Source: Sphingomonas montanisoli
Lineage (GTDB): Bacteria; Pseudomonadota; Alphaproteobacteria; Sphingomonadales; Sphingomonadaceae
Length of the DNA stretch: 64,000 bases
Reading direction: 5' to 3'
NCBI RefSeq assembly: GCF_008274695.1
Contig: NZ_VTOU01000003.1
Coordinates: 372,001-436,000 of the forward strand
Below, in pieces: positions 42,260-61,138 of the stretch (position 1 is the first letter of the stretch; each line of letters starts with the position of its first letter). Below the pieces are notes generated by a model. That model searched no databases and was not told the DNA's origin. It was given only the letters and a program-made list of their open reading frames with translations. Made by a program: the position numbers and the translations under genes.

Positions 42260-43066
42260 ATGCGGGCGGCGATCATCGCGGCGCTGGCGATCGGGGCGCT
42301 GGCGACGCCGCTGCATGCCGCGCCGAAGCGCATCGTCTCGCTCAACCTGTGCGCCGACCAGCTGATCCTGACGCTGGCCGATCGATCACAGATTGCGGGG
42401 CTGACGCGCAACGCCGCCAAGGCGAACATGTCGGCCGAGGCGGCGCGGACCAAGGGGCTGCGCATTCTCGGCACGTCAGCGGAGGAGATATTGGAGATCG
42501 ATCCCGATCTCGTCGTCGGCATCCCCGCGCGGCGCAACGCGATCCTGCGCGCGCTCAAGATGCGGAAATATCCTGCGGTCGACCTGAAAAGCGCCGACAC
42601 GCTGGAGGATATCTACGCATCGATCCGCACCGTATCGGAGGCGGTGGGCCATCCCGATCGCGGCGAGGCCATGATCGCGCAGATGGAGCGCGATCTGGCC
42701 GGCACGCCCGGGATCGGGCGACATCGGGTCGCAGCTTATTATCAGCGCCGGGGCTATATGACCGGCGCGGGCACGCTGGTCGACGACCTGATGACACGGA
42801 TCGGGCTGGTCAATCTTGCGACGAAGCTCGGCAAGCCCGCGCTCTCCCAGCTGAGCCTGGAGGAAATGGTGGCGGCGCGGCCCGATTTCCTGATCGTCGA
42901 AAGCGCGACCGACAAGATCACCGATCAGGGCACCGAGATGCTGCACCACCCCGCACTCAACGCCATCCCGCGCCTGCACATTCCCGAGGCGTGGACGGTG
43001 TGCGGCGGGCCAGCCTACACCAAGGCGGTTCGCACCCTGACCGAGCAACTCCGGCGCTACCGCTGA
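42260..43066 (+). CDS. btuF: BtuF-like periplasmic substrate-binding protein
   Basis: A 268-residue helical-backbone (class III) ABC binding protein with signal peptide (MRAAIIAALAIGALATPLHAA). It starts KRIVSLNLCADQLILTLADRSQIAGLTRNA and contains EEILEIDPDLVVGIPARRNAILRAL and LSLEEMVAARPDFLIVESA, as in BtuF/FecB-type proteins. The mature N-terminal segment and the location just before a cobalamin riboswitch and btuB argue for a corrinoid ligand. It lies upstream of the riboswitch, in the transcription unit of the M28 peptidase, so the riboswitch would not control it. No BtuC or BtuD gene is in the window. Confidence 0.82.
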   Translation: MRAAIIAALAIGALATPLHAAPKRIVSLNLCADQLILTLADRSQIAGLTRNAAKANMSAEAARTKGLRILGTSAEEILEIDPDLVVGIPARRNAILRALKMRKYPAVDLKSADTLEDIYASIRTVSEAVGHPDRGEAMIAQMERDLAGTPGIGRHRVAAYYQRRGYMTGAGTLVDDLMTRIGLVNLATKLGKPALSQLSLEEMVAARPDFLIVESATDKITDQGTEMLHHPALNAIPRLHIPEAWTVCGGPAYTKAVRTLTEQLRRYR

Positions 43067-43119
43067 AGCGTGCGCCGCGCGCGCCGGATTGACGCAGCGC
43101 ACCCAAAGGCGTAGTCGCC

Positions 43120-43300
43120 GCGCCGCGACAGGTTCCCCCTTAAGACGGGGATGAAAAGGGAACGGGGTTCAAGACCCCGGCTGCCCCTGCAACTGTGAGC
43201 GGCGAGCTATCGCGCCATCAAGCCATTGGGACTTCGGTTCTGAGAAGGCGGCGCGAAACGGCGATGACCCGCAAGCCAGGAGACCTGCCCGTCGCGGTCG
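43120..43300 (+). promoter_or_regulatory. Cobalamin (AdoCbl) riboswitch
   Basis: The conserved elements are all present in order: a closing stem CGCGAC (43124) with GTCGCGG (43291), GGTTCCCC, AAAAGGGAA, the GCTGCCCCTGCAACTGT core around 43180, and the B12 box AAGCCAGGAGACCTGCC at about 43273-43289. It lies 140 bp before btuB. Binding of cobalamin would lower expression of the btuB-cob operon. Confidence 0.95.
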
Positions 43301-43439
43301 TCTTTCGTGCGGACAGGGTGTGCCGGGCGGACGGGGGTTAACCCGAGTGACGACAGATCCGGACCGTGTTCGCGCGGGGGATAGGTCGTGCCCTGCCCCC
43401 GAACGAACGCGATCCCTTTGTCTTGGGGCTAGACGTTCG

Positions 43440-45392
43440 ATGTTGAAATATTCGTTTCTAATCTCCCTCCTGCTCTCCACCACGGCCTATGCCGAGGAGC
43501 AGCAGGCGGCGCAGCCCGACGCGGCAGCGGAGGCCGACGCCTCCGACATCCTGGTCACCGCGACCCGCATTGCCACGCCCGCCGAAAAAGTGCCCGTTTC
43601 GGTCACCGTGCTCGACAAGGCGGCGATCGACCGCAACCAGGATATGGGCGTGACCGAGCTGCTGCAGCGCACGCCGGGCGTCAGCATGTCGCGCAACGGC
43701 GGCTATGGCACCGCCACCTCGCTGCGCATCCGTGGCGCCGAAGCCGACCAGACCGTGGTGGTGATCGACGGCGTGAAGCTGAACGATCCTTCGTCGGCGG
43801 GCGGCGGCTACAACTTCGCCAATCTGCTGGTGGGCGATGCGTCGCGGATCGAGGTGCTGCGCGGGCCGCAGTCGATCCTCTGGGGCAGCCAGGCGATTGG
43901 CGGCGTCGTGAACGTCGTCACCGCGCTGCCGCAAAAGGAGCTCGAAGGCAGCTTCGACGTCGAGGCCGGATCGCGCCAGACCGCAAGCGCACGCGCCGCA
44001 GTGGGCGGCAAGCAAGGCGCGCTGACGTGGCGCCTGGGCGGGCAGGCCTTCTCGACCGACGGCATCTCCGCGATCGCCCCGGCCTTCGGCGGACGCGAGA
44101 AGGACGGTTACACCAACCGCAACCTGTCCGGCCGCGTCGAAGTGGCTATCACCGAGAACGTCACCGCCGACTTTCGCGGTTATTTCTCCAAGGGCCGCAC
44201 CGACATCGACTCGACCACTGCCGACAACCCGACCTATGCGCTGAGCCGCGAGTTCGTGGGCTATGCGGGGTTGAAGATCGACCTGCTCGACAAGCGCCTG
44301 CGCAACCGCATCGCTTATGGCTACACCGACACCAACCGCGACAATTTCGATCCGCGCAACCAGCGCACCAAGACGTTCGACAGCGCGGGCCGGAACAAGC
44401 GTTTGGAGTATCAGGGCGCCTTCGCGATCGCCGATGGCTGGACGGCGCTGTTCGGCGCGGAGAATGAACGCTCGCGCTTCCGCAGCGTTTCTCCGCCCGC
44501 TTCGCTCGCTACGCCCATCCCCGCAGCGGCGCGCGGCAAGGCCGAGATCACGAGCTTCTACGGCCAGCTGCTCGCCGAGCCGATCGCGGGGCTGAGCCTC
44601 AACGTCGGCGTGCGCAACGACGATCATAGCCGCGCGGGCAACAAGACGCTGTTCTCGGCGGGTGGCGCGTGGTCGCTGCCGACCGGCACGATCATTCGCG
44701 CGGCCTATGGCGAGGGCTTCAAGGCGCCGACGCTCTACCAGCTCTTCTCCGAATTCGGGAACGAAGCGCTCGCTCCCGAAGAGGCCGACGGCTGGGAAGC
44801 GGGGGCCGAGCAGAAGCTGCTCGACGGCAAGCTGAGCTTCGGTGCGACCTATTTCGAGCGCACGACGACCAACCAGATCGTGTTCAACAGCTGCTCGGCG
44901 ACGTCGACCCTGGCGCTGTGTCGCCAGCCCGGCACGACGATCCGTCGCTCGGGCTATTACCTCAACGTCGCGCGCGCCGAAGCGCATGGGATCGAGGCGC
45001 AGGCTTCGCTTCAGCCGATCGAAGGCCTGATCGTCGACGGCAACTATAGCTGGACGGTCGCGGAGGATCGATCGAAGGGCACGACGACGTTCGGCAAGTG
45101 GCTGCCGCGCCGCCCACGCAACCAGGCGAACGGATCGATCAGCTATCGCTGGCCGGTGGGCCTGACGACGGGCGGTGCGATCCGCTGGTCGGGCCACAGC
45201 TTCGACAACGCGTCCAACGCCCAGCGGCTCGACAGCTATACGCTGGTCGATCTGCGCGCCGAACTGGAGCTGTCCGAACAGTTCCGCCTGTTCGCCCGCG
45301 TCGAGAACCTGTTCGACAAGGACTATATGACCGCGTTCCGCTATGGCACGCTGGGCCGCAGCATATACGCCGGCTTCCGGGGCCGCTTCTGA
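43440..45392 (+). CDS. btuB: TonB-dependent cobalamin receptor BtuB
   Basis: A 650-residue outer-membrane receptor with signal peptide (MLKYSFLISLLLSTTAYAEE). The TonB box is ILVTATR, and the plug contains VPVSVTVLDKAAIDRNQDMGVTELLQRTPGVSMSRNGGYGTATSLRIRGAEADQTVVVIDGVKLNDPSSAGGGYNFANLLVGDASRIEVLRGPQSILWGSQAIGGVVNVVT. The barrel ends GFRGRF. The ATG at 43440 is preferred because it begins the signal peptide; the longer frame runs into the riboswitch. The riboswitch directly upstream identifies the ligand as a corrinoid. It is the first gene of a long overlapping operon. Confidence 0.94.
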   Translation: MLKYSFLISLLLSTTAYAEEQQAAQPDAAAEADASDILVTATRIATPAEKVPVSVTVLDKAAIDRNQDMGVTELLQRTPGVSMSRNGGYGTATSLRIRGAEADQTVVVIDGVKLNDPSSAGGGYNFANLLVGDASRIEVLRGPQSILWGSQAIGGVVNVVTALPQKELEGSFDVEAGSRQTASARAAVGGKQGALTWRLGGQAFSTDGISAIAPAFGGREKDGYTNRNLSGRVEVAITENVTADFRGYFSKGRTDIDSTTADNPTYALSREFVGYAGLKIDLLDKRLRNRIAYGYTDTNRDNFDPRNQRTKTFDSAGRNKRLEYQGAFAIADGWTALFGAENERSRFRSVSPPASLATPIPAAARGKAEITSFYGQLLAEPIAGLSLNVGVRNDDHSRAGNKTLFSAGGAWSLPTGTIIRAAYGEGFKAPTLYQLFSEFGNEALAPEEADGWEAGAEQKLLDGKLSFGATYFERTTTNQIVFNSCSATSTLALCRQPGTTIRRSGYYLNVARAEAHGIEAQASLQPIEGLIVDGNYSWTVAEDRSKGTTTFGKWLPRRPRNQANGSISYRWPVGLTTGGAIRWSGHSFDNASNAQRLDSYTLVDLRAELELSEQFRLFARVENLFDKDYMTAFRYGTLGRSIYAGFRGRF

Positions 45393-45979
45393 TGCCCGCG
45401 CTCGCTGTCGATCGGCCGATCGAGAAGCGGGTGACCAAGGTGGACGGCCGGACCGAGGAGGTCTGGCCGCTTCCCCTCGATCGCGACTGGCTGTTCGCCA
45501 TGTTCTCCGAACTGTTCGACGATCATTGGGACAAGCTGACCTGGGGTCCGCTGATCCCGGGCGCCGCCTATGAGCTGAAATGCCCGGGCAAGCCGGAGAA
45601 GATCACCCTCTCCAAGCTCGGCTATTTCACCGTTCACTGGGGCGCGAAGGGGCATTTCCACCTGTGCCTGGGCGCGGGCCCGGCGATGGCGCCCGAGGAT
45701 GCAATCAAGCGCAGCCCCGCGCGGGTCGAACTGGTCCGCCGGCTCGATGCCGACGAGATGCCGATCTCGTGGAGCATCCGCATGTTCAACGGGGCGGGCG
45801 ATCCGCAAATCTCGATCTACCTGCCCAACCCCTTCCTGCGCCCCGAAGACCGGATCGCCGACGAACCCGACTGGGATCGCCTGACGCTCTGGGACGACCT
45901 GTTTCCCCGCCTGACCGGCCAGCCGACCGACGGCCGTGACCGGATGGGCAAGGGCTATGTCAAAACCACGACCAACTGA
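45392..45979 (+). CDS. Uncharacterised protein in the cobalamin operon (195 aa)
   Basis: The start overlaps the btuB stop (TGATG), so it is translationally coupled. The protein has no signal peptide or membrane segment and is rich in Trp and Pro: EEVWPLPLDRDWLFAMFSELFDDHWDKLTWGPLIPGAAYELKCPGKPEKITLSKLGYFTVHWGAKGHFHLCLG. HWG, GHFHLCLG and the single Cys residues could bind a metal or cofactor. It ends with LWDDLFPRLTGQPTDGRDRMGKGYVKTTTN. I do not recognise a characterised family. The context suggests a cytoplasmic role in corrinoid or cobalt handling. Confidence 0.8.
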   Translation: MPALAVDRPIEKRVTKVDGRTEEVWPLPLDRDWLFAMFSELFDDHWDKLTWGPLIPGAAYELKCPGKPEKITLSKLGYFTVHWGAKGHFHLCLGAGPAMAPEDAIKRSPARVELVRRLDADEMPISWSIRMFNGAGDPQISIYLPNPFLRPEDRIADEPDWDRLTLWDDLFPRLTGQPTDGRDRMGKGYVKTTTN

Positions 45980-45992
45980 AAGGACCGAGACT

Positions 45993-46535
45993 ATGACGAC
46001 GACGCTCTCCAAATCCGGCGCCTCGATGCTCTGGATCCTGTTGCTGACCGCCGCGAGCACGGTGACCACCCTGGTGCTCGCCTGTGCGACGCCCTTCCCT
46101 TCGCTCGCGGCGCTCGCCGCCGTCCACATGCGCCGCCGCGACGGCATCGCGACGATGCTGCTCGCCTGGGCGGCAAGCCAGGCGGTGGGATTCGGCCTGC
46201 TCAACTATGCGCACAAGGCGACGACCTTCGCCTGGGGCGGCGCGCTCGCGATCGGCGCGGTCGCTTCGGTGCTGGCGGCGCGCGTGCCGCTGCCCCGCTT
46301 CGCACAGGCACCGGTCTGGGCGCGACTCGCGATCGCTTATGTCGCGGGGTTCCTGGGCTTCAAGCTGGTGATGCTCGCCTCGGCGCTCGTCCTGGGCGGG
46401 GTGCACACGGCGGTCGATCCGATGATCATGGCCAACCAGTTCGTGCGCAACGCCGCGATCCTGGCAGGGCTCTATGCGCTCTATCGCGGTCTGCTGGCGC
46501 TCGGGGTCCCGGCCCCGGTCGCCGCGACCGCGTGA
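45993..46535 (+). CDS. Small five-helix membrane protein in the cobalamin operon
   Basis: A 180-residue inner-membrane protein starting MTTTLSKSGASMLWILLLTAASTVTTLVLACATPFPSLAALAAVHM. Five hydrophobic helices are visible, at about residues 12-43, 53-72, 77-97, 108-134 and 148-170. A single cysteine sits in ACATPFPSLAALAA, and WAASQAVGFGLLNY follows. The size, cysteine and operon position recall solitary ECF S-component-like cobalamin transporters such as BtuM, but the resemblance is by design, not by a motif I can align. It could import corrinoid, cobinamide or dimethylbenzimidazole. The start is chosen at 45993 with AAAGGACCGAGA upstream. Confidence 0.8.
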   Translation: MTTTLSKSGASMLWILLLTAASTVTTLVLACATPFPSLAALAAVHMRRRDGIATMLLAWAASQAVGFGLLNYAHKATTFAWGGALAIGAVASVLAARVPLPRFAQAPVWARLAIAYVAGFLGFKLVMLASALVLGGVHTAVDPMIMANQFVRNAAILAGLYALYRGLLALGVPAPVAATA

Positions 46536-46681
46536 ACCTGGACTCGCGGGCTCTGCGTGAGATCGAAAGGCTGGAAGACGAAAATCGCCGGTTGCGCGAC
46601 CTCGTCTCGACACTGCAAAGCGATCTCGCGCAGTTGCGCGAACTGAAGCGACGGGAGGGCGGGCGATGCTCCGGCCAGTGA
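46532..46681 (+). CDS. 49-aa coiled-coil microprotein nested in the cob operon
   Basis: A GTG-initiated frame overlaps the stop of the membrane-protein gene (GTGA) and ends 16 bases inside the next gene. The translation begins VNLDSRALREIERLEDENRR and continues LRDLVSTLQSDLAQLRELKRRE, a run of leucine heptads predicting a parallel coiled coil, and ends GGRCSGQ. Position and overlaps match the tight spacing of every other junction in this operon, and no other explanation of the 130-bp gap is apparent. It may be a small scaffold or regulator of a neighbouring protein. Function is unknown. Confidence 0.65.
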   Translation: MNLDSRALREIERLEDENRRLRDLVSTLQSDLAQLRELKRREGGRCSGQ

Positions 46682-47073
46682 AGAACGGCCCGGCGGTGGT
46701 GGCATGCAACACATGCCGCCATTCGGCCGAATCCCGCGACGACGGCGAAGGCGTGCGCGGCGGCGCGCGCCTGGCCGCCGCGCTCCATGCGGTGAAAGCC
46801 AGCGACGATCTCTATGCGGGGGTCGAGGTGCAGGAAATGGCCTGCCTGTTCGCGTGCAGCGACTATTGCACCGTCCACCTGCGCGCACCCGGCAAGGTGA
46901 GCTATATCCTCGGCCGCTTCACACCCGATGAGGAGGCTGCCCGCGCCATCCTCGATTATGCCGTCCATTATGCGGCGAGCGAGCATGGCCGCGTGCCCTT
47001 TTCGCAATGGCCGGCGGGAGTGAAGGGCCATTTCATCACGAGGTCGCCCCCCGAAGGGTTCGTCGCCGAATGA
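46666..47073 (+). CDS. DUF1636 family cysteine-containing protein
   Basis: A 135-residue protein starting MLRPVKNGPAVVACNTCRHSAESRDDGEGVRGG after GGGAGGGCGGGCG. Cysteines occur as CNTC and as CLFACSDYC, in a thioredoxin-like/[2Fe-2S] ferredoxin-like arrangement typical of DUF1636 (predicted metal-binding). It continues VHLRAPGKVSYILGRFTPDEEAARAILDYAVHYAASEHGRVPFSQWP. DUF1636 genes are frequent in cobalamin clusters of alphaproteobacteria, and a role in cobalt delivery or redox of cobalt has been an open question. The stop overlaps the cobT start. Confidence 0.85.
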   Translation: MLRPVKNGPAVVACNTCRHSAESRDDGEGVRGGARLAAALHAVKASDDLYAGVEVQEMACLFACSDYCTVHLRAPGKVSYILGRFTPDEEAARAILDYAVHYAASEHGRVPFSQWPAGVKGHFITRSPPEGFVAE

Positions 47074-48083
47074 GCTTTGCGAGCATCGACACCTTCGAAA
47101 GCGCGCTGGCCAGCCTGACGCGGCCGGACGGTGCGGCGATTGCAGCGGCGCAGGCGCGACAGGCGCAGCTGACCAAGCCGGCAGGGTCGCTCGCCCGGCT
47201 GGAGGAGATAGCGATCTTCTTCGCGGGCTGGCAGGGGCGCGAACGGCCGCGTATCGATCGCGGTCGCGTCGCGGTGTTCGCGGGCAATCATGGCATCACC
47301 GTCCACGGCGTGAGCGCCTTTCCGGCCGACGTGACCGTGCAGATGGTCGCCAACTTCCGCGCCGGGGGCGCCGCGATCAACGCGCTGGCGAAGGCGGCGG
47401 ACCTTGAGCTGATCATCGTTCCGATCGATCTCGACACACCGACGGCAGATTTCACCGTGGCGCCGGCGATGAGCGAGGCGGAATGCCTCGCGGCGCTGTC
47501 CGCAGGGGCCGAGGCGGTCGAACCCGGCCTCGACCTGATCGTGGTGGGCGAGATGGGGATCGGCAATTCGACGGCAGCCGCCGCGCTGGCCACGCGCAGC
47601 TTTGGCGGCGCGGTGGCCGATTGGACCGGGCCGGGCACGGGCCTCGACGGAGCAGGAATCGCGCGCAAGATCGACGTGATCGAACGCGCCTTGCAGCACC
47701 ACGGATCGGCGCCGATGACGCCTTTCGAAACTTTGCGCCGCGTGGGTGGGCGCGAGATTGGGGCGATTGCGGGCGCGATCCTGCGCGCGCGGCAATTGGG
47801 CATTCCGGTGGTGCTCGACGGCTTCATAACGACGTCCGCGATTGCGCCGCTGGCGGTCGCCAATCCGGACATCACCGCGCATTGCATCGCCGGCCATTGT
47901 TCTGCCGAGCCGGGGCATCAGAAATTGCTGGATCAGCTTGGCCTCGCCCCCCTGCTCCGCCTCGACATGCGGCTGGGCGAAGCGAGCGGCGGCGCGGTGG
48001 CGGTGAACATCATCCGATCGGCGCTGGCCGCGCACGCACAGATGGCGACCTTTGCCGAAGCGGCCGTATCCGGCAGGGAATGA
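47070..48083 (+). CDS. cobT: Nicotinate-nucleotide--dimethylbenzimidazole phosphoribosyltransferase
   Basis: A 337-residue enzyme that makes alpha-ribazole phosphate from nicotinate mononucleotide and a lower-ligand base. It has the LTKPAGSLARLEEIA start, VAVFAGNHGITVHGVSAFPADVTVQMVANFRAGGAAINALA, VGEMGIGNSTAAAAL, and GFITTSAIAPLAVANPDITAHCIAGHCSAEPGHQKLLDQLGLAPLLRLDMRLGEASGGAVAVNIIR with the catalytic Glu. Start at 47070 by overlap with the DUF1636 stop. It begins the nucleotide-loop assembly block. Confidence 0.96.
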   Translation: MSFASIDTFESALASLTRPDGAAIAAAQARQAQLTKPAGSLARLEEIAIFFAGWQGRERPRIDRGRVAVFAGNHGITVHGVSAFPADVTVQMVANFRAGGAAINALAKAADLELIIVPIDLDTPTADFTVAPAMSEAECLAALSAGAEAVEPGLDLIVVGEMGIGNSTAAAALATRSFGGAVADWTGPGTGLDGAGIARKIDVIERALQHHGSAPMTPFETLRRVGGREIGAIAGAILRARQLGIPVVLDGFITTSAIAPLAVANPDITAHCIAGHCSAEPGHQKLLDQLGLAPLLRLDMRLGEASGGAVAVNIIRSALAAHAQMATFAEAAVSGRE

Positions 48084-48649
48084 CCGACTTCGCCCTCTAT
48101 CTGCTCCGGCACGGCGCGCCCGAGACGCCCGGATTGCTGATGGGGCGCAGCGACGGCCTGCCGACGCCCGCCGGGATCGCCGCGTGCCTCGACCAGGCGG
48201 ACGGGCTCGACTTCGCGACGCTGATCGCGTCCGATCTTGCGCGATCGAGGCTGGCCGCCGAAGCGATCGGGGCGAGGCGCGATATTGCCCCAGTCATCGA
48301 TCCACGTTGGCGCGAACTCGATTTCGGCGATTGGGACGGGCAACCGGCGTCGGCGGTCCCGCCCGATGCGCTGGCGCAATTCTGGGGCGATCCGGACACA
48401 AATCCGCCCCCCAATGGCGAGCGCTGGTCGACGCTGCTGACGCGCGTGGGCGCCGCGATCGAGGCAATCGACCCGCGGCCGACCCTGATCGTCACACATG
48501 GCGGCGCGATGCGAGCCGCGCTTTCCTATCTGTGCGGCTTCGATCAACGCCAGATCTGGAGCTTCGAACTGGGCTATGCAGCGCTGATTTCGCTGCGCAT
48601 CTGGCCAGGCGAGCGACGCTCGGCGCAGATCGTCGGGCTTTGGCCGTGA
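48080..48649 (+). CDS. cobC: Histidine phosphatase (alpha-ribazole phosphatase type)
   Basis: A 189-residue phosphoglycerate-mutase-fold phosphatase. The catalytic RHG is in YLLRHGAPETPGLLMGRSDGLPTPAG, WRELDFGDWDGQPASAVPP is the second signature, and the second His is in LIVTHGGAMRAALSYL. In this context it should dephosphorylate alpha-ribazole 5'-phosphate or adenosylcobalamin phosphate. The start overlaps the cobT stop and the end overlaps the cobS start. The symbol cobC is used in the Salmonella sense. Confidence 0.88.
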   Translation: MTDFALYLLRHGAPETPGLLMGRSDGLPTPAGIAACLDQADGLDFATLIASDLARSRLAAEAIGARRDIAPVIDPRWRELDFGDWDGQPASAVPPDALAQFWGDPDTNPPPNGERWSTLLTRVGAAIEAIDPRPTLIVTHGGAMRAALSYLCGFDQRQIWSFELGYAALISLRIWPGERRSAQIVGLWP

Positions 48650-49365
48650 AGGGGCTGATCGTCGCGATCCAGTTCCTCACGCGCCTGCCGACGCCACGCA
48701 TTGCCGTGTCGGATGCAGAGTTCGCGGGATCGATGCGCTGGTTTCCAGCCGTCGGCCTGATCGTCGGCGCGATTCTGGCGGGTGGCGCCTGGGTGGGCGC
48801 GTGGATCGATCCGTGGGTCGGCGCGCTGGCAGCACTGCTGCTGTGGATCGGCATGACGGGGGCGTTGCACCTCGACGGGCTGGGCGACATTGCGGACGCA
48901 TCGGGCGCGGCGCACAAGGATCGCGCGCGGATGATCGCGGTGATGTCCGACCCGCACGTCGGCAGCTTCGGCGTCGTGGCGATCGCGCTGCAGATCGCGG
49001 CGAAGCTGGTGCTGCTGCACGGTGCCGTCGCGGAGCAACTGTGGTGGGCGATTGCGCTGATCCCGTTCGCCGCGCGGATCGGGCCGCTGCTGTGGACCCG
49101 TATGCTGCCGCCACTGCACGCGGGGCTGGCGGCGCGCTTCGCGCATGTGATCCGGCCGGTGCACCTCGCCATCTGGGCGGGGGTGTTGCTGATCGCCTGC
49201 TGGTTCGCGCCCTCTCTGGTGGCCGCGCCGGTGGCGATGCTGGCATGGACGTCGTGGCTGCGACGGCGGATCGGGGGAATTTCTGGTGACGGGCACGGCG
49301 CGGGGATCGAACTGACCGAAAGCACTCTGCTGCTCGCCGCGCTGATCGTGGCGCGGATGGCATGA
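48646..49365 (+). CDS. cobS: Adenosylcobinamide-GDP ribazoletransferase
   Basis: A 239-residue polytopic membrane enzyme joining adenosylcobinamide-GDP and alpha-ribazole. The GTG start at 48646 overlaps the previous stop. Motifs are VAIQFLTRLPTPRI, SMRWFPAVGLIVGAILAG, LLWIGMTGALHLDGLGDIADASGAAHKDRARMIAVMSDPHVGSFGVVAI (metal/substrate Asp and HLDGLGD) and GISGDGHGAGIELTESTLLLAAL. Sits in the inner membrane as the final assembly step. Confidence 0.95.
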   Translation: MKGLIVAIQFLTRLPTPRIAVSDAEFAGSMRWFPAVGLIVGAILAGGAWVGAWIDPWVGALAALLLWIGMTGALHLDGLGDIADASGAAHKDRARMIAVMSDPHVGSFGVVAIALQIAAKLVLLHGAVAEQLWWAIALIPFAARIGPLLWTRMLPPLHAGLAARFAHVIRPVHLAIWAGVLLIACWFAPSLVAAPVAMLAWTSWLRRRIGGISGDGHGAGIELTESTLLLAALIVARMA

Positions 49366-50333
49366 GCGATCGGTGGACCTGGCATGGCGGCGGCCTTGCC
49401 GCAGCGCGCGCGCATTATGGCGATGGCGACTGGATCGACCTTTCGACGGGGATCAACCCGCATCCTTGGCCGGGCGTCGATGCACTGGCAGTCGACTGGC
49501 GGCGCCTCCCGGACGAGGCGGATCTGCGCGCGCTGGAAACTGCGGCAGCGGCGCATTTCGGGGCCAACCCGACGCATGTCTGCGCGGTGCCGGGGAGCGA
49601 GATCGGGCTGCGGCTTACCGGGCATCTGCTGGACGAGAAGGGATTGTGGTGCGAACCTGCCTATCGCACGCATGGAGACATGCTGATTGATGCACAGCCC
49701 CTGTCCTTCGATCGAGCGGGCGAGGCCGACGGGCGCACATTGATCCTCGCCAATCCGAACAATCCCGACGGGCGGCTGATCGATCGCGATGCGATGCGCG
49801 ACCTGCTGGCGCGGCGCGGCGACGGATGGCTGCTGGTCGACGAAGCCTTTGGCGATGCGCATCCCGAGTGCAGCATTGCGAGCGAGGTCGGCGAACGGCG
49901 GCTGATCGTGTTCCGTTCGTTCGGCAAATTTTTCGGGCTGGCCGGAGTGCGGCTCGGCTTCGTGATCGGGCCGCGCGCGATCGTCGATCGACTGCGCAAC
50001 CTGATCGGCGCGTGGCCGCTGTCGGCGGCGGCGGTGGCGATCGGGACGGCGGCCTATCGCGATCGGGCGTGGGTCGCGCAGACCGGCGGTCTGCTGCGCA
50101 GCGACGCGGCCGCGCTCGACACGTTGCTGCGCCAGCGCGGTTTTGCGCCGCACGGCGCCTGCCCGCTGTTCCGGCTGATCGAAACCGCTGACGCGCGCCG
50201 CCTGTTCGAACGGCTCGCTGCCGCCAGAATCCTGACGCGACCGTTCGACGAGAATCCGCGCTGGCTGCGCATCGGCCTGCCCGGCAACGCCGACGAATTC
50301 GCGCGGCTCGACGCGGCGCTGGACGGTGTTTGA
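49362..50333 (+). CDS. cobD: Threonine-phosphate decarboxylase / CobC-type aminotransferase
   Basis: A 323-residue PLP enzyme of the aminotransferase I/II fold that supplies (R)-1-amino-2-propanol phosphate for the corrinoid side chain. It has HGGGLAAARAHYGDGDWIDLSTGINPHPWPGV, LILANPNNPDGRLIDRDAM, WLLVDEAFGDAHPE and the PLP lysine in FRSFGKFFGLAGVRLGFVIG. It overlaps cobS and the following cbiB gene. Naming differs by convention: cobD in Salmonella, cobC in Pseudomonas. Confidence 0.93.
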   Translation: MSDRWTWHGGGLAAARAHYGDGDWIDLSTGINPHPWPGVDALAVDWRRLPDEADLRALETAAAAHFGANPTHVCAVPGSEIGLRLTGHLLDEKGLWCEPAYRTHGDMLIDAQPLSFDRAGEADGRTLILANPNNPDGRLIDRDAMRDLLARRGDGWLLVDEAFGDAHPECSIASEVGERRLIVFRSFGKFFGLAGVRLGFVIGPRAIVDRLRNLIGAWPLSAAAVAIGTAAYRDRAWVAQTGGLLRSDAAALDTLLRQRGFAPHGACPLFRLIETADARRLFERLAAARILTRPFDENPRWLRIGLPGNADEFARLDAALDGV

Positions 50334-51249
50334 GCCCCTCGCGCTCGGCGCGCTGATCCTCGATGCGGGGATCGGGTGGCCGGCGGGGCTTTATCGCCGG
50401 ATCGGTCATCCGGTCGGCGCGTTCGCCGCGATCATCGGGGTGTGCGAGCGGCACTGGAACCGGCCGGATATCAGCGAAAGCGGGCGACGGGTGGCCGGCG
50501 TGGCGACGGTGTTGCTGCTGATCGCCGTCGCGGGCGGCGCAGGCTGGGCGTTGCAGGCGCTGGCGATGCGGCTACCCTTCGGCTGGGTGATCGTGGCGCT
50601 GCTGGCCTTTCCCGCGCTGGCGCAGCGCAGCCTGTTCGATCATGTCCGGCCCGTCGCGAGGGCGCTGGCGGCGGGCGATCTGGAGGGGGCGAGGCGCGCG
50701 GTCGGCATGATCGTGGGGCGCGACACCGCGCAACTCGACGAAGCGGGCGTGGCGCGGGCGGGGATCGAGAGTCTGGCCGAAAGCTTCTGCGACGGAATCG
50801 CCGCACCCTTGTTCTGGCTGCTGCTGCTCGGGCTGCCGGGCGTGTGGGCGTATAAGGCGATCAACACCGCCGACAGCCTGATCGGGCACAAGGAGGAGCG
50901 CTGGCGGGCCTTCGGCTGGGCGGCGGCGCGGACCGACGATGTGCTGAACCTTATCCCGGCGCGGATCGCGGGGGTGATGATCTGCCTTGCCGGACCCGGC
51001 GGGTGGCGCGTGATGCTGCGCGATGCGGGCAAGCATGCCTCGCCCAATGCGGGGTGGCCCGAGGCGGCGATGGCGGGCGTGCTGGGGGTGCGTCTCGCCG
51101 GCCCGATCGCCTATGACAATGTGGTGGTGGACAAGGCTTGGATCGGTAACGGGCGGGCGGATGCGAATGCGGACGATCTGCACCGCGCACTCGCCATCTA
51201 TGTCCGGGCGTGCCTGATGCTGTGGGTGATCGCGGGGGTTTGCGCATGA
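50326..51249 (+). CDS. cbiB: Adenosylcobinamide-phosphate synthase
   Basis: A 307-residue integral membrane protein. The GTG start at 50326 overlaps the previous gene by 8 bases and gives (V/M)FEPLALGALILDAGIGWPAGLYRRIGHPVGAFAAII. Other family segments are VGRDTAQLDEAGVARAGIESLAESFCDGIAAPLFWLLLLGLPGVWAYKAINTADSLIGHKEERWRAFGWAAARTDDVLNLIPARI and LGVRLAGPIAYDNVVVDKAWIGNG. It attaches aminopropanol phosphate to adenosylcobyric acid. Named cbiB (Salmonella) or cobD (Pseudomonas). Confidence 0.95.
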   Translation: MFEPLALGALILDAGIGWPAGLYRRIGHPVGAFAAIIGVCERHWNRPDISESGRRVAGVATVLLLIAVAGGAGWALQALAMRLPFGWVIVALLAFPALAQRSLFDHVRPVARALAAGDLEGARRAVGMIVGRDTAQLDEAGVARAGIESLAESFCDGIAAPLFWLLLLGLPGVWAYKAINTADSLIGHKEERWRAFGWAAARTDDVLNLIPARIAGVMICLAGPGGWRVMLRDAGKHASPNAGWPEAAMAGVLGVRLAGPIAYDNVVVDKAWIGNGRADANADDLHRALAIYVRACLMLWVIAGVCA

Positions 51250-57496: not shown

Positions 57497-58029
57497 CCAG
57501 ATGTCACTAAGGACAGGGTGGTGCAGCTATCAGTCCTTCGCAAACCCGTCTCCGCAGGTAGTTTCCCGTTAGAACGTGAAAATAACGCGAAACGCTGCCT
57601 TCTCCGGGGTCGAATGAAGAGTTTCGCCTACCACAAAGAGCAGAAAACCGGGGCTCTTGATCGCGCGTTCCCGTACTGAGCGAAACGGGAAAATCATTTG
57701 TCTCAACGGGCATCGTCCGACCGCAGTCGGGTATTCCGGTTCGCATCAGAAGAGCAGAAGCCGGCCAGCGCTTTTACGCATAAACCGCTGCCAGATTTCA
57801 ATTTTTGACTAGCTTCAGCTGCTCAACCGTTCAGGGTGTTCCTTGAAAATTCCGGCAATATAAATGGACTCCCTTGTCCGCAGGGAGTGCAATCCATGGC
57901 CGATCTCGCGACCCAAATCGTTTCGTTTACACGGCGTATCACCGACAAATTGCCCAACCGCAATTCAGCCTTTCGCAGCCATTTTTGTTGTAATAAATGG
58001 ATGCCCTCTTTCACCGAGGGCGACCGCCG
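57497..58029. other. Region without a recognised gene at the left edge of the mobile segment
   Basis: No convincing protein or RNA gene is seen. The DNA is less GC-rich than the genes to the left. TTTCCCGTT (around 57563) and AACGGGAAA (around 57684) form a distant inverted pair. ACTCCCT/AGGGAGT (57868-57888) is a small hairpin just after the AT-rich TATAAAT. A 45-residue frame from 57896 (MADLATQIVSFTRRITDKL) is possible but has weak support. The insertion boundary and any attachment site probably lie here or a little to the left. Confidence 0.4.
58003..58021 (+). promoter_or_regulatory. Hairpin covering the ribosome-binding site of the ParB-methyltransferase gene
   Basis: GCCCTC and GAGGGC pair around a 7-base loop just before the ATG at 58030. 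The GAGGG that would pair with 16S rRNA is inside the stem, so translation could be reduced until the stem opens. Confidence 0.4.
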
Positions 58030-59337
58030 ATGACACCGCTTCAGATCATTTACCGCCAGCCACAGATGCTGTCGGAGCATGGCCGCAACGCACGTCGACA
58101 CAGCACAAAACAGATCGATCGGCTGAAGTCTTCCATCCGCTCGTTCGGTTTCAACGCCCCTGTCGTGATCAACGAACAGGGTGAGATTCTTGCCGGTCAT
58201 GGCCGGGTCCGCGCTGCGATCGAATTGAAGCTTGGTGAGATTCCGACTGTGACGCTCAATCACCTGAGCCCTGCGCAGGCGCGCGCCTTCATGCTCGCAG
58301 ACAATCGGATCGCCGAACTGTCGACCTGGGACGAAGCCCTGCTGGCGGAGGAACTCGAGGAGTTATCTGCCACTGACGAGCCGTTCGAGATTACCGACAC
58401 CGGCTTCGAGCTGGCCCGGATCGATGTTTTGATCGAGGAGCGTCACAAACCAAAATCAGACGCGGATCCGGCCGACGCGCCAGTAGATCCGGGCGCTGTG
58501 GAAACCGTGTCGCGACCGGGCGACCTGTGGCTGCTCGGTAAGCATCGCCTGCTTGTCGGCAATGCGCTCGACCCGCTCAGCTACCGCGTTCTGCTCGGTG
58601 AGGAGCGCGCTCAGATGGTTTTCATCGACTCGCCCTACAACGTGCCGATCGATGGCCACGTGTCCGGCAAGGGTAAGGTTCGCCATAGCGAATTCGTGAT
58701 GGGCTCGGGCGAGATGAGCGATACCGAATTCGAGGCTTTCCTGCGAACAACTTTCGAGCGCCTTATCGATGCCAGCATCGATGGTGCCATCCACTATTCC
58801 TGCATGGACTGGCGCGGGCTCAGCGCAATGCTGTCGGCGGGGTCGATATATTCCGAGCTAAAGAACATATGCTGCTGGGTCAAAAGCCAAGGCGGAATGG
58901 GTTCGCTCTACCGTTCGCAGCACGAGCTGATTGCGGTCTTCAAATCGGGTACGGCGCCGCACATCAACAATGTCGCGCTCGGCAAACACGGCCGGAACCG
59001 CACCAATGTTTGGGCCATGCCCGGCATGAACAGTTTTCAACGCGGGCGGGCCGCCAAGCTGGCGATGCATCCGACGGTGAAGCCGGTCGCGCTGGTCGCA
59101 GATGCCATGCTCGACTGCTCGCACCGCGGCGGGCTGGTGCTCGATGTTTTCTCAGGCTCAGGCACGACAATGATCGCGGCCGAGCGCACCGGCCGCATTG
59201 CCGCTGCGATGGAACTCGATCCGCATTATGCAGACGTGTCGCTCCGCCGTTTCTGCGATGTGACGGGCATCGAACCGGTGAATGCCTGGACAGGACAAAT
59301 CGTTCGGCGCCGGGAACCGACGGGGGGCGGCCGATGA
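58030..59337 (+). CDS. ParB-domain DNA methyltransferase fusion
   Basis: A 435-residue protein. Residues about 1-110 form a ParB/Srx-like domain (LKSSIRSFGFNAPVVINEQGEILAGHGRVRAAIELKLGEIPTVTLNHLSPAQARAFMLADNRIAELSTWD). The C-terminal half is an N4-cytosine/N6-adenine methyltransferase of the beta order: motif IV appears as DSPY (200-203) before motif I FSGSGTT (374-380), with HPTVKPVALVADAM between. The usual motif is DPPY, so the Ser is unusual. The start at 58030 has GAGGG upstream; an ATG 33 bases earlier lacks one. It overlaps the DUF5681 gene. Such fusions are frequent in alphaproteobacterial prophages. Confidence 0.9.
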   Translation: MTPLQIIYRQPQMLSEHGRNARRHSTKQIDRLKSSIRSFGFNAPVVINEQGEILAGHGRVRAAIELKLGEIPTVTLNHLSPAQARAFMLADNRIAELSTWDEALLAEELEELSATDEPFEITDTGFELARIDVLIEERHKPKSDADPADAPVDPGAVETVSRPGDLWLLGKHRLLVGNALDPLSYRVLLGEERAQMVFIDSPYNVPIDGHVSGKGKVRHSEFVMGSGEMSDTEFEAFLRTTFERLIDASIDGAIHYSCMDWRGLSAMLSAGSIYSELKNICCWVKSQGGMGSLYRSQHELIAVFKSGTAPHINNVALGKHGRNRTNVWAMPGMNSFQRGRAAKLAMHPTVKPVALVADAMLDCSHRGGLVLDVFSGSGTTMIAAERTGRIAAAMELDPHYADVSLRRFCDVTGIEPVNAWTGQIVRRREPTGGGR

Positions 59338-59717
59338 GCGACGATTATGAAGTCGGCCGCGGCAAACCTCCGCGCGAACATCAGTTCAAGGCCGGCAATC
59401 AGGCAGCACGCGGACGCAAAAAGCGCCAGTCGATCTCACTGCCGGAGATGCTGGAAAAGGCCTTTAACCGGCGACGCCAGATCAAACGCGGTGGCGAGAT
59501 CGTGTCGATGAGGGCGGGCGAGATCATGATCGAGCGCTTCGTCCAGATGATGACGACTGGTTCGCCGCGTGAGTTGGTTATGATGTTCAGTCTCATCGAA
59601 AAGCATGCACCGAAGTTTCTCGAGCAGCATGCCGCCGAGATCGCGATCACATATCAGGCTGCCGAGGGGACCAATATCGATCTGCCGCCTTCCGATCTGT
59701 GGGAGACAGACAAATGA
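59334..59717 (+). CDS. DUF5681 domain protein (putative small-terminase-like)
   Basis: A 127-residue protein starting MSDDYEVGRGKPPREHQFKAGNQAARGRKKRQSISLPEMLEKAFNRRRQIKRGGE. The VGxGKPPxxxQFKxGNxxxxGRKK opening is the DUF5681 signature. The remainder is helical (MIERFVQMMTTGSPRELVMMFSLIEKHAPKFLEQHAAEIAITYQ). It is very basic at the N-terminus, consistent with DNA binding. It lies between the methyltransferase and the terminase large subunit with 4-bp overlaps on both sides, the place of a small terminase subunit in phages. That role is inferred. Confidence 0.82.
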   Translation: MSDDYEVGRGKPPREHQFKAGNQAARGRKKRQSISLPEMLEKAFNRRRQIKRGGEIVSMRAGEIMIERFVQMMTTGSPRELVMMFSLIEKHAPKFLEQHAAEIAITYQAAEGTNIDLPPSDLWETDK

Positions 59718-61138
59718 TCACGGTCAATCTGCCGGCTTGGGCGCAGTGGCTCGATGTGCCGCTTGCCCCTGATCGACTGCCCGTGCGCCATAGGGTGCTG
59801 CTCGGCGGACGCGGTGGTGGTAAGTCGTGGACGATCGCGCACAAGCTCGTCGAACGCGCCATTCGCAATCCCGAGCGAATTCTGTGCACGCGCGAGTATC
59901 AGAACTCGATCCGAGACAGCTCCAAGCGCCTGATCGAAGATGTGATCGACCGCATGCAACTGGGTGCGCGTGGCTCAGGCTTCTTCACCGTTACCGACAA
60001 GGAGATACGCGGCCAAAACGGCTCGCGCTTTGTGTTCATGGGTCTCAACGGCAAGGACAGCGCGATCAAGTCACTCGAAGGCTTCACGCTGGTCTGGGTC
60101 GAGGAAGCCGCTGCAGTCGCGCAAGCCTCGATCGAGGCACTAGTGCCGACGATCCGCCGGGAGCGGTCCGAGATATGGTGGAGCTATAATCCGCGCTACC
60201 GACACGATCCGGTCGATATGATGTTCCGGGGCGGCACGATCCAGCCGCCAGGTTCGATCGTGCAGATCGTTAAATGGTCGGACAACCCATGGTTCCCCAT
60301 AGTGCTGCACCGCGAGATGGAGTTCGACCGGCAGCGCGATCCTGAAAAGCACATGCATGTCTGGGAAGGTCAATATGTCGAGCGCAGCGAAGCGCGCGTC
60401 TTTCACCGCTGGAAAGTCCATGCATTCGACGAGCCGGACGACGCTCTGCATCGTTTCGGCGCCGACTGGGGTTTTGCAAAAGATCCGACAGTGTTGGTGC
60501 GCTGTTTCATCGGCCGTTGGGCGGGTGAACCTTACAATAGCGATATCATCGCCGATCAGAAGGGCGATCATCTCTTCGTCGATGACGAGGCTTACAAGGT
60601 CGGCTGTGCCATAGACGAGACCCCCGCCTTGTTCGCCGGCTTCGATCACCTGCGGCCAGCGCGTTGGCAGAATGGCTTTCTACACCCAGGGATCACCGGC
60701 GCCGCAAGTTACCAGATTACAGCTGACAGCGCTCGGCCCGAGACAATCGACTTCATGCGCAAGCGCGGCTTCAATATAAGCCCCGCGATCAAAGGGCCGG
60801 GGTCAGTCGAAGACGGCATCGCTTTCCTCAAGAGTTTCGATATCGTCGTCCACCCCAGATGCCGGCATCTCATCGACGAACTCGTTCTCTACAGCTGGGC
60901 GTCCGACCGACACACGGGCGAAATCCTCAACAAGCTATCCGACAAAAACAATCATGTAATCGACGCGCTTCGCTACGCGCTCGAGGGAGCACGCAAAGCG
61001 AGCCGGCCCGACTTTCAAGGCTACAGCACTGGTCGCAGCATTATGTTCGATATCCCGGGGTATCTTCCCAGTCGCTGGTCAGAGGTGCATCCAGACTTGC
61101 GGGCCCATAGATCGGTGATTGGAGATCTGTTCCGATAA
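59714..61138 (+). CDS. Phage terminase large subunit (PBSX-type)
   Basis: A 474-residue DNA-packaging motor homologue. The ATPase has Walker A LLGGRGGGKSWT (29-40), Walker B LVWVEEA (126-132), and the coupling region SYNPRYRHDP. The nuclease domain begins FGADWGFAKDPTVLVRCF (DWG at 251-253), with the second acidic residues in TADSARPETIDFMRKRGFNISPAIKGPGSVEDGIAFLKSFDIVVHPRC and LNKLSDKNNHVIDALRYALEG. Length and motifs look complete, so it may be functional. The usual portal gene does not follow; the next gene is convergent. Confidence 0.92.
   Translation: MITVNLPAWAQWLDVPLAPDRLPVRHRVLLGGRGGGKSWTIAHKLVERAIRNPERILCTREYQNSIRDSSKRLIEDVIDRMQLGARGSGFFTVTDKEIRGQNGSRFVFMGLNGKDSAIKSLEGFTLVWVEEAAAVAQASIEALVPTIRRERSEIWWSYNPRYRHDPVDMMFRGGTIQPPGSIVQIVKWSDNPWFPIVLHREMEFDRQRDPEKHMHVWEGQYVERSEARVFHRWKVHAFDEPDDALHRFGADWGFAKDPTVLVRCFIGRWAGEPYNSDIIADQKGDHLFVDDEAYKVGCAIDETPALFAGFDHLRPARWQNGFLHPGITGAASYQITADSARPETIDFMRKRGFNISPAIKGPGSVEDGIAFLKSFDIVVHPRCRHLIDELVLYSWASDRHTGEILNKLSDKNNHVIDALRYALEGARKASRPDFQGYSTGRSIMFDIPGYLPSRWSEVHPDLRAHRSVIGDLFR

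Follow-up and report, generated by a model that had tools for sequence, protein, structure and literature searches.

Many cobalamin-requiring Gram-negative bacteria have BtuB without BtuCDF, according to the accessible part of PMC6072759. BtuM, the nearest functional parallel to the protein described here, is a small, solitary membrane protein with the fold of the S-components of energy-coupling factor (ECF) transporters; it is linked to btuB, has one invariant cysteine and occurs in hosts that mostly lack an ECF module. Its Cys80, situated in loop L3, binds cobalt and is essential, and BtuM of Thiobacillus denitrificans decyanates its substrate, as stated in the same part of that paper. Here we analyze a membrane protein, designated mem, that is encoded behind btuB in a cobalamin riboswitch operon of Sphingomonas montanisoli (family Sphingomonadaceae, class Alphaproteobacteria; genome G000). 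The operon lies in a DNA stretch of 64,000 nucleotides, referred to as the window.

A link of mem to corrinoid uptake, suggested in a first-pass annotation of the window, is borne out by the riboswitch, the linkage to btuB and an exchange with BtuCD, and mem very probably serves this process. We further predict, with good though lesser confidence, that mem is an inner-membrane corrinoid transporter able to replace BtuCD. This is the most likely role because of the riboswitch, the btuB linkage, the predicted fold and the exchange between FecCD permeases and mem, all of which, like the conservation of the protein, emerged from computation. Like BtuCDF, mem is encoded in the same type of riboswitch operon, at the same position behind btuB, for what is predicted to be the same step, whereas it is one small protein without an ATPase and has a BtuF-like partner in some cases only.

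Occurrence of mem and its exchange with BtuCD

With the window protein as query, mem was matched in 25 of the 199 genomes of the family, and profile A1 recovered the same 25. It was also found in 18 of 385 genomes of a class sample and in 11 of 398 genomes of a phylum sample, with one weak match in each; all of the latter belong to the same class. Both counts include the S. montanisoli genome, and the samples partly overlap. After exclusion of the weak matches in G343 (4e-4) and G623 (7e-4), the mem set comprised 49 genes in 47 genomes, although a piece from G623 is still among the 88 rows of the mem tree. The 45 named mem loci are mostly from Sphingopyxis, Sphingomonas and Sphingobium. One more copy, on a cyanobacterial plasmid, was detected with a relative as query (tblastn 4e-10) and scored 109 bits against profile A1.

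A cobalamin riboswitch on the same strand precedes 41 of the 49 mem genes. In five cases the distance is 125-172 nt, which leaves no room for btuB, and in 36 it is 2.0-3.5 kb, with a BtuB-like receptor between riboswitch and mem in 35 of these. Such a receptor adjoins mem in 24 of the 26 family loci, and the 45 named loci contain matches to btuB (44), DUF1636 (44) and cobT (40); contig ends truncate some of these loci. The genes are thus mostly found inside cobalamin loci, a point on which the first-pass annotation had made its proposal depend. In the mem tree the window protein falls in a 49-sequence clade marked by K124, where other members have E or Q (the bootstrap is not fully settled); within it, btuB-mem-DUF1636-cobT-cobC-cobS is the order in most cases. 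More distant mem members are also found behind a BtuB-like receptor, which resembles that of the window at 25-45%, and several precede a BtuF-like protein.

Two altered copies were encountered. One is in the FecCD-bearing genome G053, where mem is broken across two frames (L024, L052; G053:C1:2166449-2166966), as if decaying beside BtuCD. On a Qipengyuania citrea plasmid (L192:4950-6309) a mem that is truncated at its N terminus and lacks the Cys region adjoins an annotated cobalamin-binding protein, and no TonB receptor is annotated in that stretch.

The permease family of BtuC, FecCD, is present in 186 of the 199 family genomes and in 179 of the 187 good ones (at least 90% complete, at most 5% contaminated). 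Seven of the eight good genomes without FecCD (G023, G025, G044, G089, G090, G108, G124 and G149) carry mem, compared with 18 of the 179 with FecCD (Fisher p 2.5e-6); for all 199 genomes the proportions are 7 of 13 and 18 of 186 (p 2e-4), both p values ignoring kinship. In four genera, a mem-free relative that bears FecCD has riboswitch-btuB with BtuC genes, and another member has riboswitch-btuB-mem. The genes that follow riboswitch and btuB in the mem-free loci are btuF-btuC-btuD (G169, G153), btuF-btuC (G154) or btuC-btuD (G081). Since G108, which has mem, and G169 share genes on both flanks and a btuB that is 82% identical, mem and BtuCD were exchanged in place there. The downstream flanks are common to G149 and G081, with btuB only 35% alike; G090 and G154 share one further gene besides btuB (62% alike); and between G089 and G153 only btuB matches (42%).

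The first-pass annotation reported BtuCD as missing although BtuF and BtuB are present. This is correct for the locus but not for the genome, the only FecCD permease of which is encoded on another contig (G000:C1:940333-941265) with an ATPase adjacent; compared with btuC and btuD of a btuB-mem locus, permease and ATPase show 71% and 60% identity, respectively. An intact btuCD elsewhere, combined with no mutant phenotype, had been named as evidence against the proposal; S. montanisoli does have such a btuCD, although 17 of the 47 mem genomes lack a full FecCD: 12 have no match (one of these genomes being only 77% complete) and five have weak partial matches, two of them above the Pfam cut-off. 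In S. montanisoli, the presence of BtuCD elsewhere makes mem an extra or specialized route. Because mem is tied to cobT-cobC-cobS, this is possibly a second route for cobinamide or other incomplete corrinoids.

Fold and conserved residues of mem

Searches of Pfam, NCBIfam and PDB sequences with mem gave no family above cut-off. Weak matches to TauE (0.006, one relative) and to GlpB at 0.01 and PGM1_C at 0.0025 (3/45) were discarded, being far below cut-off or unrelated. No name for the family was found among the papers listed in a literature search that covered subscription literature thinly, so an earlier description is possible. The B12 riboswitch loci of a Sphingomonas have been described, and the accessible part of that text names no such transporter (PMC6970198). 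The protein has a single cysteine, C31, located in ACATPFP as pointed out in the first-pass annotation. An alignment of 88 distinct sequences shows C31, P34 and Q63 in all of the 87 rows that cover the respective column (one row is cut short at each); W14, A39, A43, W59, G66 and L160 are nearly invariant, and no His, Asp or Glu is conserved.

An AlphaFold2 model built from 45 sequences (predicted local distance difference test score, pLDDT, 92.0; predicted template modeling score, pTM, 0.88) contains six helices, one of them short, at 7-29, 35-45, 48-68, 76-97, 108-134 and 143-169, and not the five helices expected initially. Of the best 13 VIA-align rows with this model, 12 are S-components or metal-transporter counterparts with Z 8.8-11.4. 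Rows 1-11 and 13 comprise PanT, ThiT, RibU, CbiM, other transition-metal transporters, BioY and 5edl; row 12 is MreD, and Z falls to 7.3 at row 14. MreD is itself reported to share the S-component fold in the accessible text of PMC11109136. The model suggests that mem likely has an ECF S-component-like fold, so that the unrelated, non-transporter fold named in the first-pass annotation as a refutation is not what VIA-align returned. Like ThiT, RibU, BioY, PanT and CbiM, mem shows the six-helix fold over most of its length. It differs from them in having no sequence family in common, in being encoded behind btuB, and in the absence of EcfT (PF02361) from 41 of the 47 mem genomes, S. montanisoli included; the other six have an EcfT-type match. 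The AxxxA motif in helix 1 of ECF transporters with a module, described in the accessible part of PMC11109136, does not occur in the window protein; 47 of 87 rows have it at some position of that helix.

The VIA-align matches include structures of CbiM and further transition-metal transporters (Z 10.1-10.5), which raises the alternative that mem imports cobalt or another metal, as CbiM and NikM do, and feeds corrinoid synthesis. Cobalt transporters can be under cobalamin riboswitches, and the setting of some copies would suit this alternative: the cyanobacterial mem is near GTP-binding, folE and thrS genes, and one plasmid mem has cobO and a gene for a cobyrinate synthase in its vicinity. We nevertheless regard metal import as highly improbable, since mem exchanges with BtuCD and has btuB and salvage genes as its linked genes, in a search that did not extend to cobalt-chelatase genes. 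The top conserved positions are C31, P34, Q63 and aromatic and small residues, and the absence of any conserved His, Asp or Glu is a weak argument against transport of a metal.

A closer relation to BtuM, in which mem would be a divergent member of that family, would account for the same size class, the btuB linkage, the solitary occurrence, the one invariant Cys and the S-component-like fold. The position of the cysteine argues otherwise: Cys80 of BtuM is in L3 (accessible part of PMC6072759), whereas the only Cys of mem is in L1 and loop L3 of the model (69-75) has none. Moreover, mem profiles A1 and A3 matched no PDB chain at E <= 10, in a search where no BtuM sequence was compared directly. 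We therefore consider membership in the BtuM family quite unlikely, and of the resemblance to BtuM suggested earlier, the fold is supported and closer kinship is not. A further difference is that mem precedes a BtuF-like protein in one branch and that the genomes in which it was found here belong to a single class of the phylum, plus one cyanobacterium. The BtuM structure was not among the Foldseek and VIA-align rows listed, which excludes nothing. A cobalamin riboswitch search of 249 phylum genomes for a BtuM reference, in which the small membrane open reading frames (ORFs) of 20 regions from among the sites listed were inspected, recovered no BtuM; the best candidate reference, DUF6580, matched no PDB chain. 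This small membrane protein (L152:2240-2746, 4e-53) comes from a genome of a different class of the phylum, where a cobalamin riboswitch lies some 2 kb upstream, and is a candidate for another B12-linked membrane family. For mem itself, contact of C31 with cobalt is predicted at slightly below even confidence.

Several results weigh against mem as a transporter that takes the place of BtuCD. Full FecCD is retained in 30 of the 47 mem genomes, that of S. montanisoli included, so in those mem is not simply a substitute. In G611 (L180, G611:C1049:1-8000), mem follows a FecCD permease that stands in the place of btuB after the riboswitch, and both transporter types are thus in one operon. G025 has neither FecCD nor mem, FecCD-less G108 has an EcfT-type match (7e-16) besides mem, and the eight FecCD-less genomes span six genera and hence represent few independent events. 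No riboswitch was found upstream of eight of the 49 mem genes (G124, near a contig start, G140, G420, G435, G344, G209, G829 and G801). There is also no riboswitch match at the cyanobacterial locus, where the genes next to mem are thrS, folE, hisI and ones for GTP-binding proteins, an arrangement regarded as zinc-responsive. For the fold, none of the Foldseek matches was significant (best E 0.99), and according to a warning of the tool helical bundles can attain VIA-align Z values near 11. For the proposed partner DUF7676, discussed below, the single-sequence model is unusable (pLDDT 51.5).

The retention of FecCD would also fit a function of mem as an accessory of BtuB or BtuCD, e.g., a periplasm-facing decyanase or base-off factor, as would the tie of K124-clade mem to nucleotide-loop genes and the decyanation by BtuM mentioned above. 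Such a non-transporting role is unlikely in view of the enrichment of mem in genomes without FecCD, its occupation of the operon place of BtuF/C/D genes and the similarity of its fold to transporter S-components.

DUF7676, DUF1636 and the proposed import pathway

All four genes between btuB and cobT had been described as uncharacterized. This stands for mem, which is in no Pfam or NCBIfam family, but the 195-aa protein belongs to Pfam DUF7676 (191 bits against a cut-off of 27), and the DUF1636 label given to the fourth holds (114.8 bits against 31.6). The genes are also not locked together as was thought: btuB, mem, DUF1636 and cobT mostly occur together, whereas DUF7676 was absent within 8 kb in the 45 named mem loci (0/45) and the 49-aa ORF reappeared in only two other lineages among the loci compared.

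DUF7676 was found in four of the 199 family genomes, always directly behind a BtuB-like receptor and always under a riboswitch, preceding mem in the window and btuC in G107, G133 and G088. The class and phylum samples add one case of DUF7676 ahead of mem in L083 (mem located by coordinates) and two in G740. Of 14 plasmid records, 12 were covered, a second Methylocella and a second Trichormus being left out. DUF7676 lies between a TonB receptor and mem in Methylocella and Gloeocapsopsis. Behind a TonB receptor and followed by a substrate-binding protein and permease, it occurs in Paracoccus (binding protein annotated only as hypothetical), Diaphorobacter, Azospirillum, Nostoc, Trichormus, Calothrix, Halotia and Acaryochloris, and an ATPase comes next in six of these eight. 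In Rhodococcus it follows an ATP-binding cassette (ABC) transporter and an FhuF_C [2Fe-2S] protein, and in Streptomyces a two-piece match follows an FhuF_C protein in a stretch without annotated transporter. Eight of the ten plasmid loci scanned have a cobalamin riboswitch, those of Gloeocapsopsis and Streptomyces do not, and Halotia and Acaryochloris were outside the scan. DUF7676 behind btuB at cobalamin riboswitch loci thus extends over Alpha- and Betaproteobacteria and Cyanobacteria.

In the three cyanobacterial DUF7676 proteins scanned, a region like thioredoxin-like [2Fe-2S] ferredoxins follows, scoring 17.5-22.3 bits (cut-off 24.8). Cyanobacterial plasmids L188, L189, L190, L193 and L194 carry a TonB receptor, a DUF7676-[2Fe-2S]-like protein and a BtuF/C-like operon; L188-L190 were scanned and all have a cobalamin riboswitch, and the [2Fe-2S]-like domain was checked in L188 and L189. 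An H-x-H-x-C motif is kept in DUF7676 alignment A4 and in two cyanobacterial proteins. Comparison with the PDB gave chance-level matches only, and the literature search returned no mention of DUF7676.

The DUF1636 protein of the window matches PDB entry 9jn8 ('ORF378', E 6e-17), and its five cysteines are invariant in the 19 rows of alignment A5. Modeling in the accessible part of PMC4520260 ties DUF1636 to thioredoxin-like [2Fe-2S] ferredoxins. The window protein keeps the five cysteines that are invariant in its own family alignment and differs from these ferredoxins in being encoded in corrinoid uptake operons, its cluster and redox partner being putative; the family recurs in corrinoid or TonB-receptor operons. 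In the literature search, DUF1636 came up in two papers, and ORF378 together with ferredoxin in none.

The DUF7676 loci, the [2Fe-2S] neighbors and fusions and the motif suggest that DUF7676 handles corrinoids as a partner of [2Fe-2S] proteins, and we tentatively predict that the two together reduce corrinoids. It is also a real, if less than even, possibility that DUF7676 accompanies the receptor or permease in a structural or regulatory capacity and has no part in corrinoid reduction. Its occurrence with mem and with BtuF/C-type genes alike, and its absence from most mem operons, are consistent with such a role; the fusion to or adjacency of [2Fe-2S]-type proteins across phyla and the H-x-H-x-C motif argue against it.

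The operon would form a corrinoid import and salvage unit under control of the cobalamin riboswitch. BtuB would move the corrinoid over the outer membrane, and solitary mem would bind it on the periplasmic face, perhaps with Cys31 of L1, which is invariant, near or on the cobalt, and carry it over the inner membrane, elsewhere the task of BtuFCD. DUF7676, presumably cytosolic, would handle the incoming corrinoid and probably receive electrons from the thioredoxin-like [2Fe-2S] ferredoxin, here DUF1636, for cobalt reduction or decyanation, after which CobT, CobC, CobS, CobD and CbiB would rebuild the nucleotide loop. In its most complete form, which is speculative, mem would be a new family of solitary S-component-fold importers with Cys-cobalt binding independent of BtuM (L1, not L3). 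It would swap repeatedly with BtuFCD behind btuB, be fed in one branch by a BtuF-like protein without ABC permease, and pass its substrate on to DUF7676 and a [2Fe-2S] reductase, for trapping in the cytosol.

Locus layout and significance

The features of the locus are given in the table. The overlapping or nearly touching junctions behind the riboswitch, noted in the first-pass annotation, were confirmed. The btuB stop and the DUF7676 ATG share one base (TGATG, 45390-45394), the mem ATG is 13 nt past the end of DUF7676, and overlaps of 4, 16 and 4 nt join the mem stop to the GTG of the 49-aa ORF, the stop of this ORF to the DUF1636 ATG, and the DUF1636 stop to the cobT ATG, respectively. The btuF gene is 5' of the riboswitch and therefore not behind it. 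The label of the cobD-type gene is our assumption and does not come from a library scan. The 49-aa ORF, for which all coiled-coil matches in Pfam and NCBIfam were below cut-off, was refound among the loci compared in G088 (57% over 37 aa) and, with a stop, in L114; it is barely conserved and is taken to be a spacer that may be coding.

Features of the cobalamin locus in the window
Feature	Coordinates	Strand	Evidence
btuF-like periplasmic binding protein	42260..43066	+	PF01497 1.7e-17
Cobalamin riboswitch	43113..43306	+	RF00174, 131.1 bits, E 1e-32
btuB-like TonB-dependent receptor	43440..45392	+	Plug and barrel domains; best NCBIfam TIGR01779 TonB-B12 7e-87, below cut-off
DUF7676 protein, 195 aa, conserved H-x-H-x-C motif; predicted corrinoid-processing partner	45392..45979	+	PF24724 1.4e-56
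mem, 180-aa membrane protein, invariant Cys31; predicted S-component fold and corrinoid transporter	45993..46535	+	No Pfam/NCBIfam family above cut-off; model
49-aa coiled-coil-like ORF, GTG start, marginal	46532..46681	+	Two other lineages among loci compared, one with stop
DUF1636, 135 aa, thioredoxin-like [2Fe-2S] ferredoxin type; invariant C14, C17, C60, C64, C68	46666..47073	+	PF07845 3.7e-33
cobT	47070..48083	+	PF02277 6e-113; TIGR03160 above cut-off
cobC-like alpha-ribazole phosphatase	48080..48649	+	PF00300 2.6e-31; TIGR03162 2e-30, below cut-off
cobS	48646..49365	+	PF02654 1.4e-45; TIGR00317 above cut-off
Probable cobD-type aminotransferase	49362..50333	+	ORF and position
cbiB	50326..51249	+	PF03186 5e-97; TIGR00380 above cut-off

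RF00174 matches this genome at four places, in one case with less than the gathering score. A second riboswitch, C8:114368-114597 (L174, G000:C8:105000-124000), is located where a TonB receptor of 829 aa, 30% like BtuB, begins. A third, C8:768252-768470 (L173, G000:C8:757000-775000), lies 5' of genes for proteins of 396 and 1275 aa, which by size and order we take to be possibly cobW and cobN. Elsewhere in the window (57997-61138), ORFs that resemble ParB/DNA-methylase and terminase genes presumably mark the start of a prophage.

If the proposed role is correct, mem, as a family without a name, would fill the BtuCDF gap in some sphingomonads and other members of the class. It would also be a further solitary S-component, apparently unrelated in sequence, that moves a very large substrate, and the exchange of mem and BtuCD within genera makes the transporter claim directly testable. 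For several phyla, DUF7676 and its [2Fe-2S] partners are candidates for a reductase or decyanase of corrinoids that is still missing.

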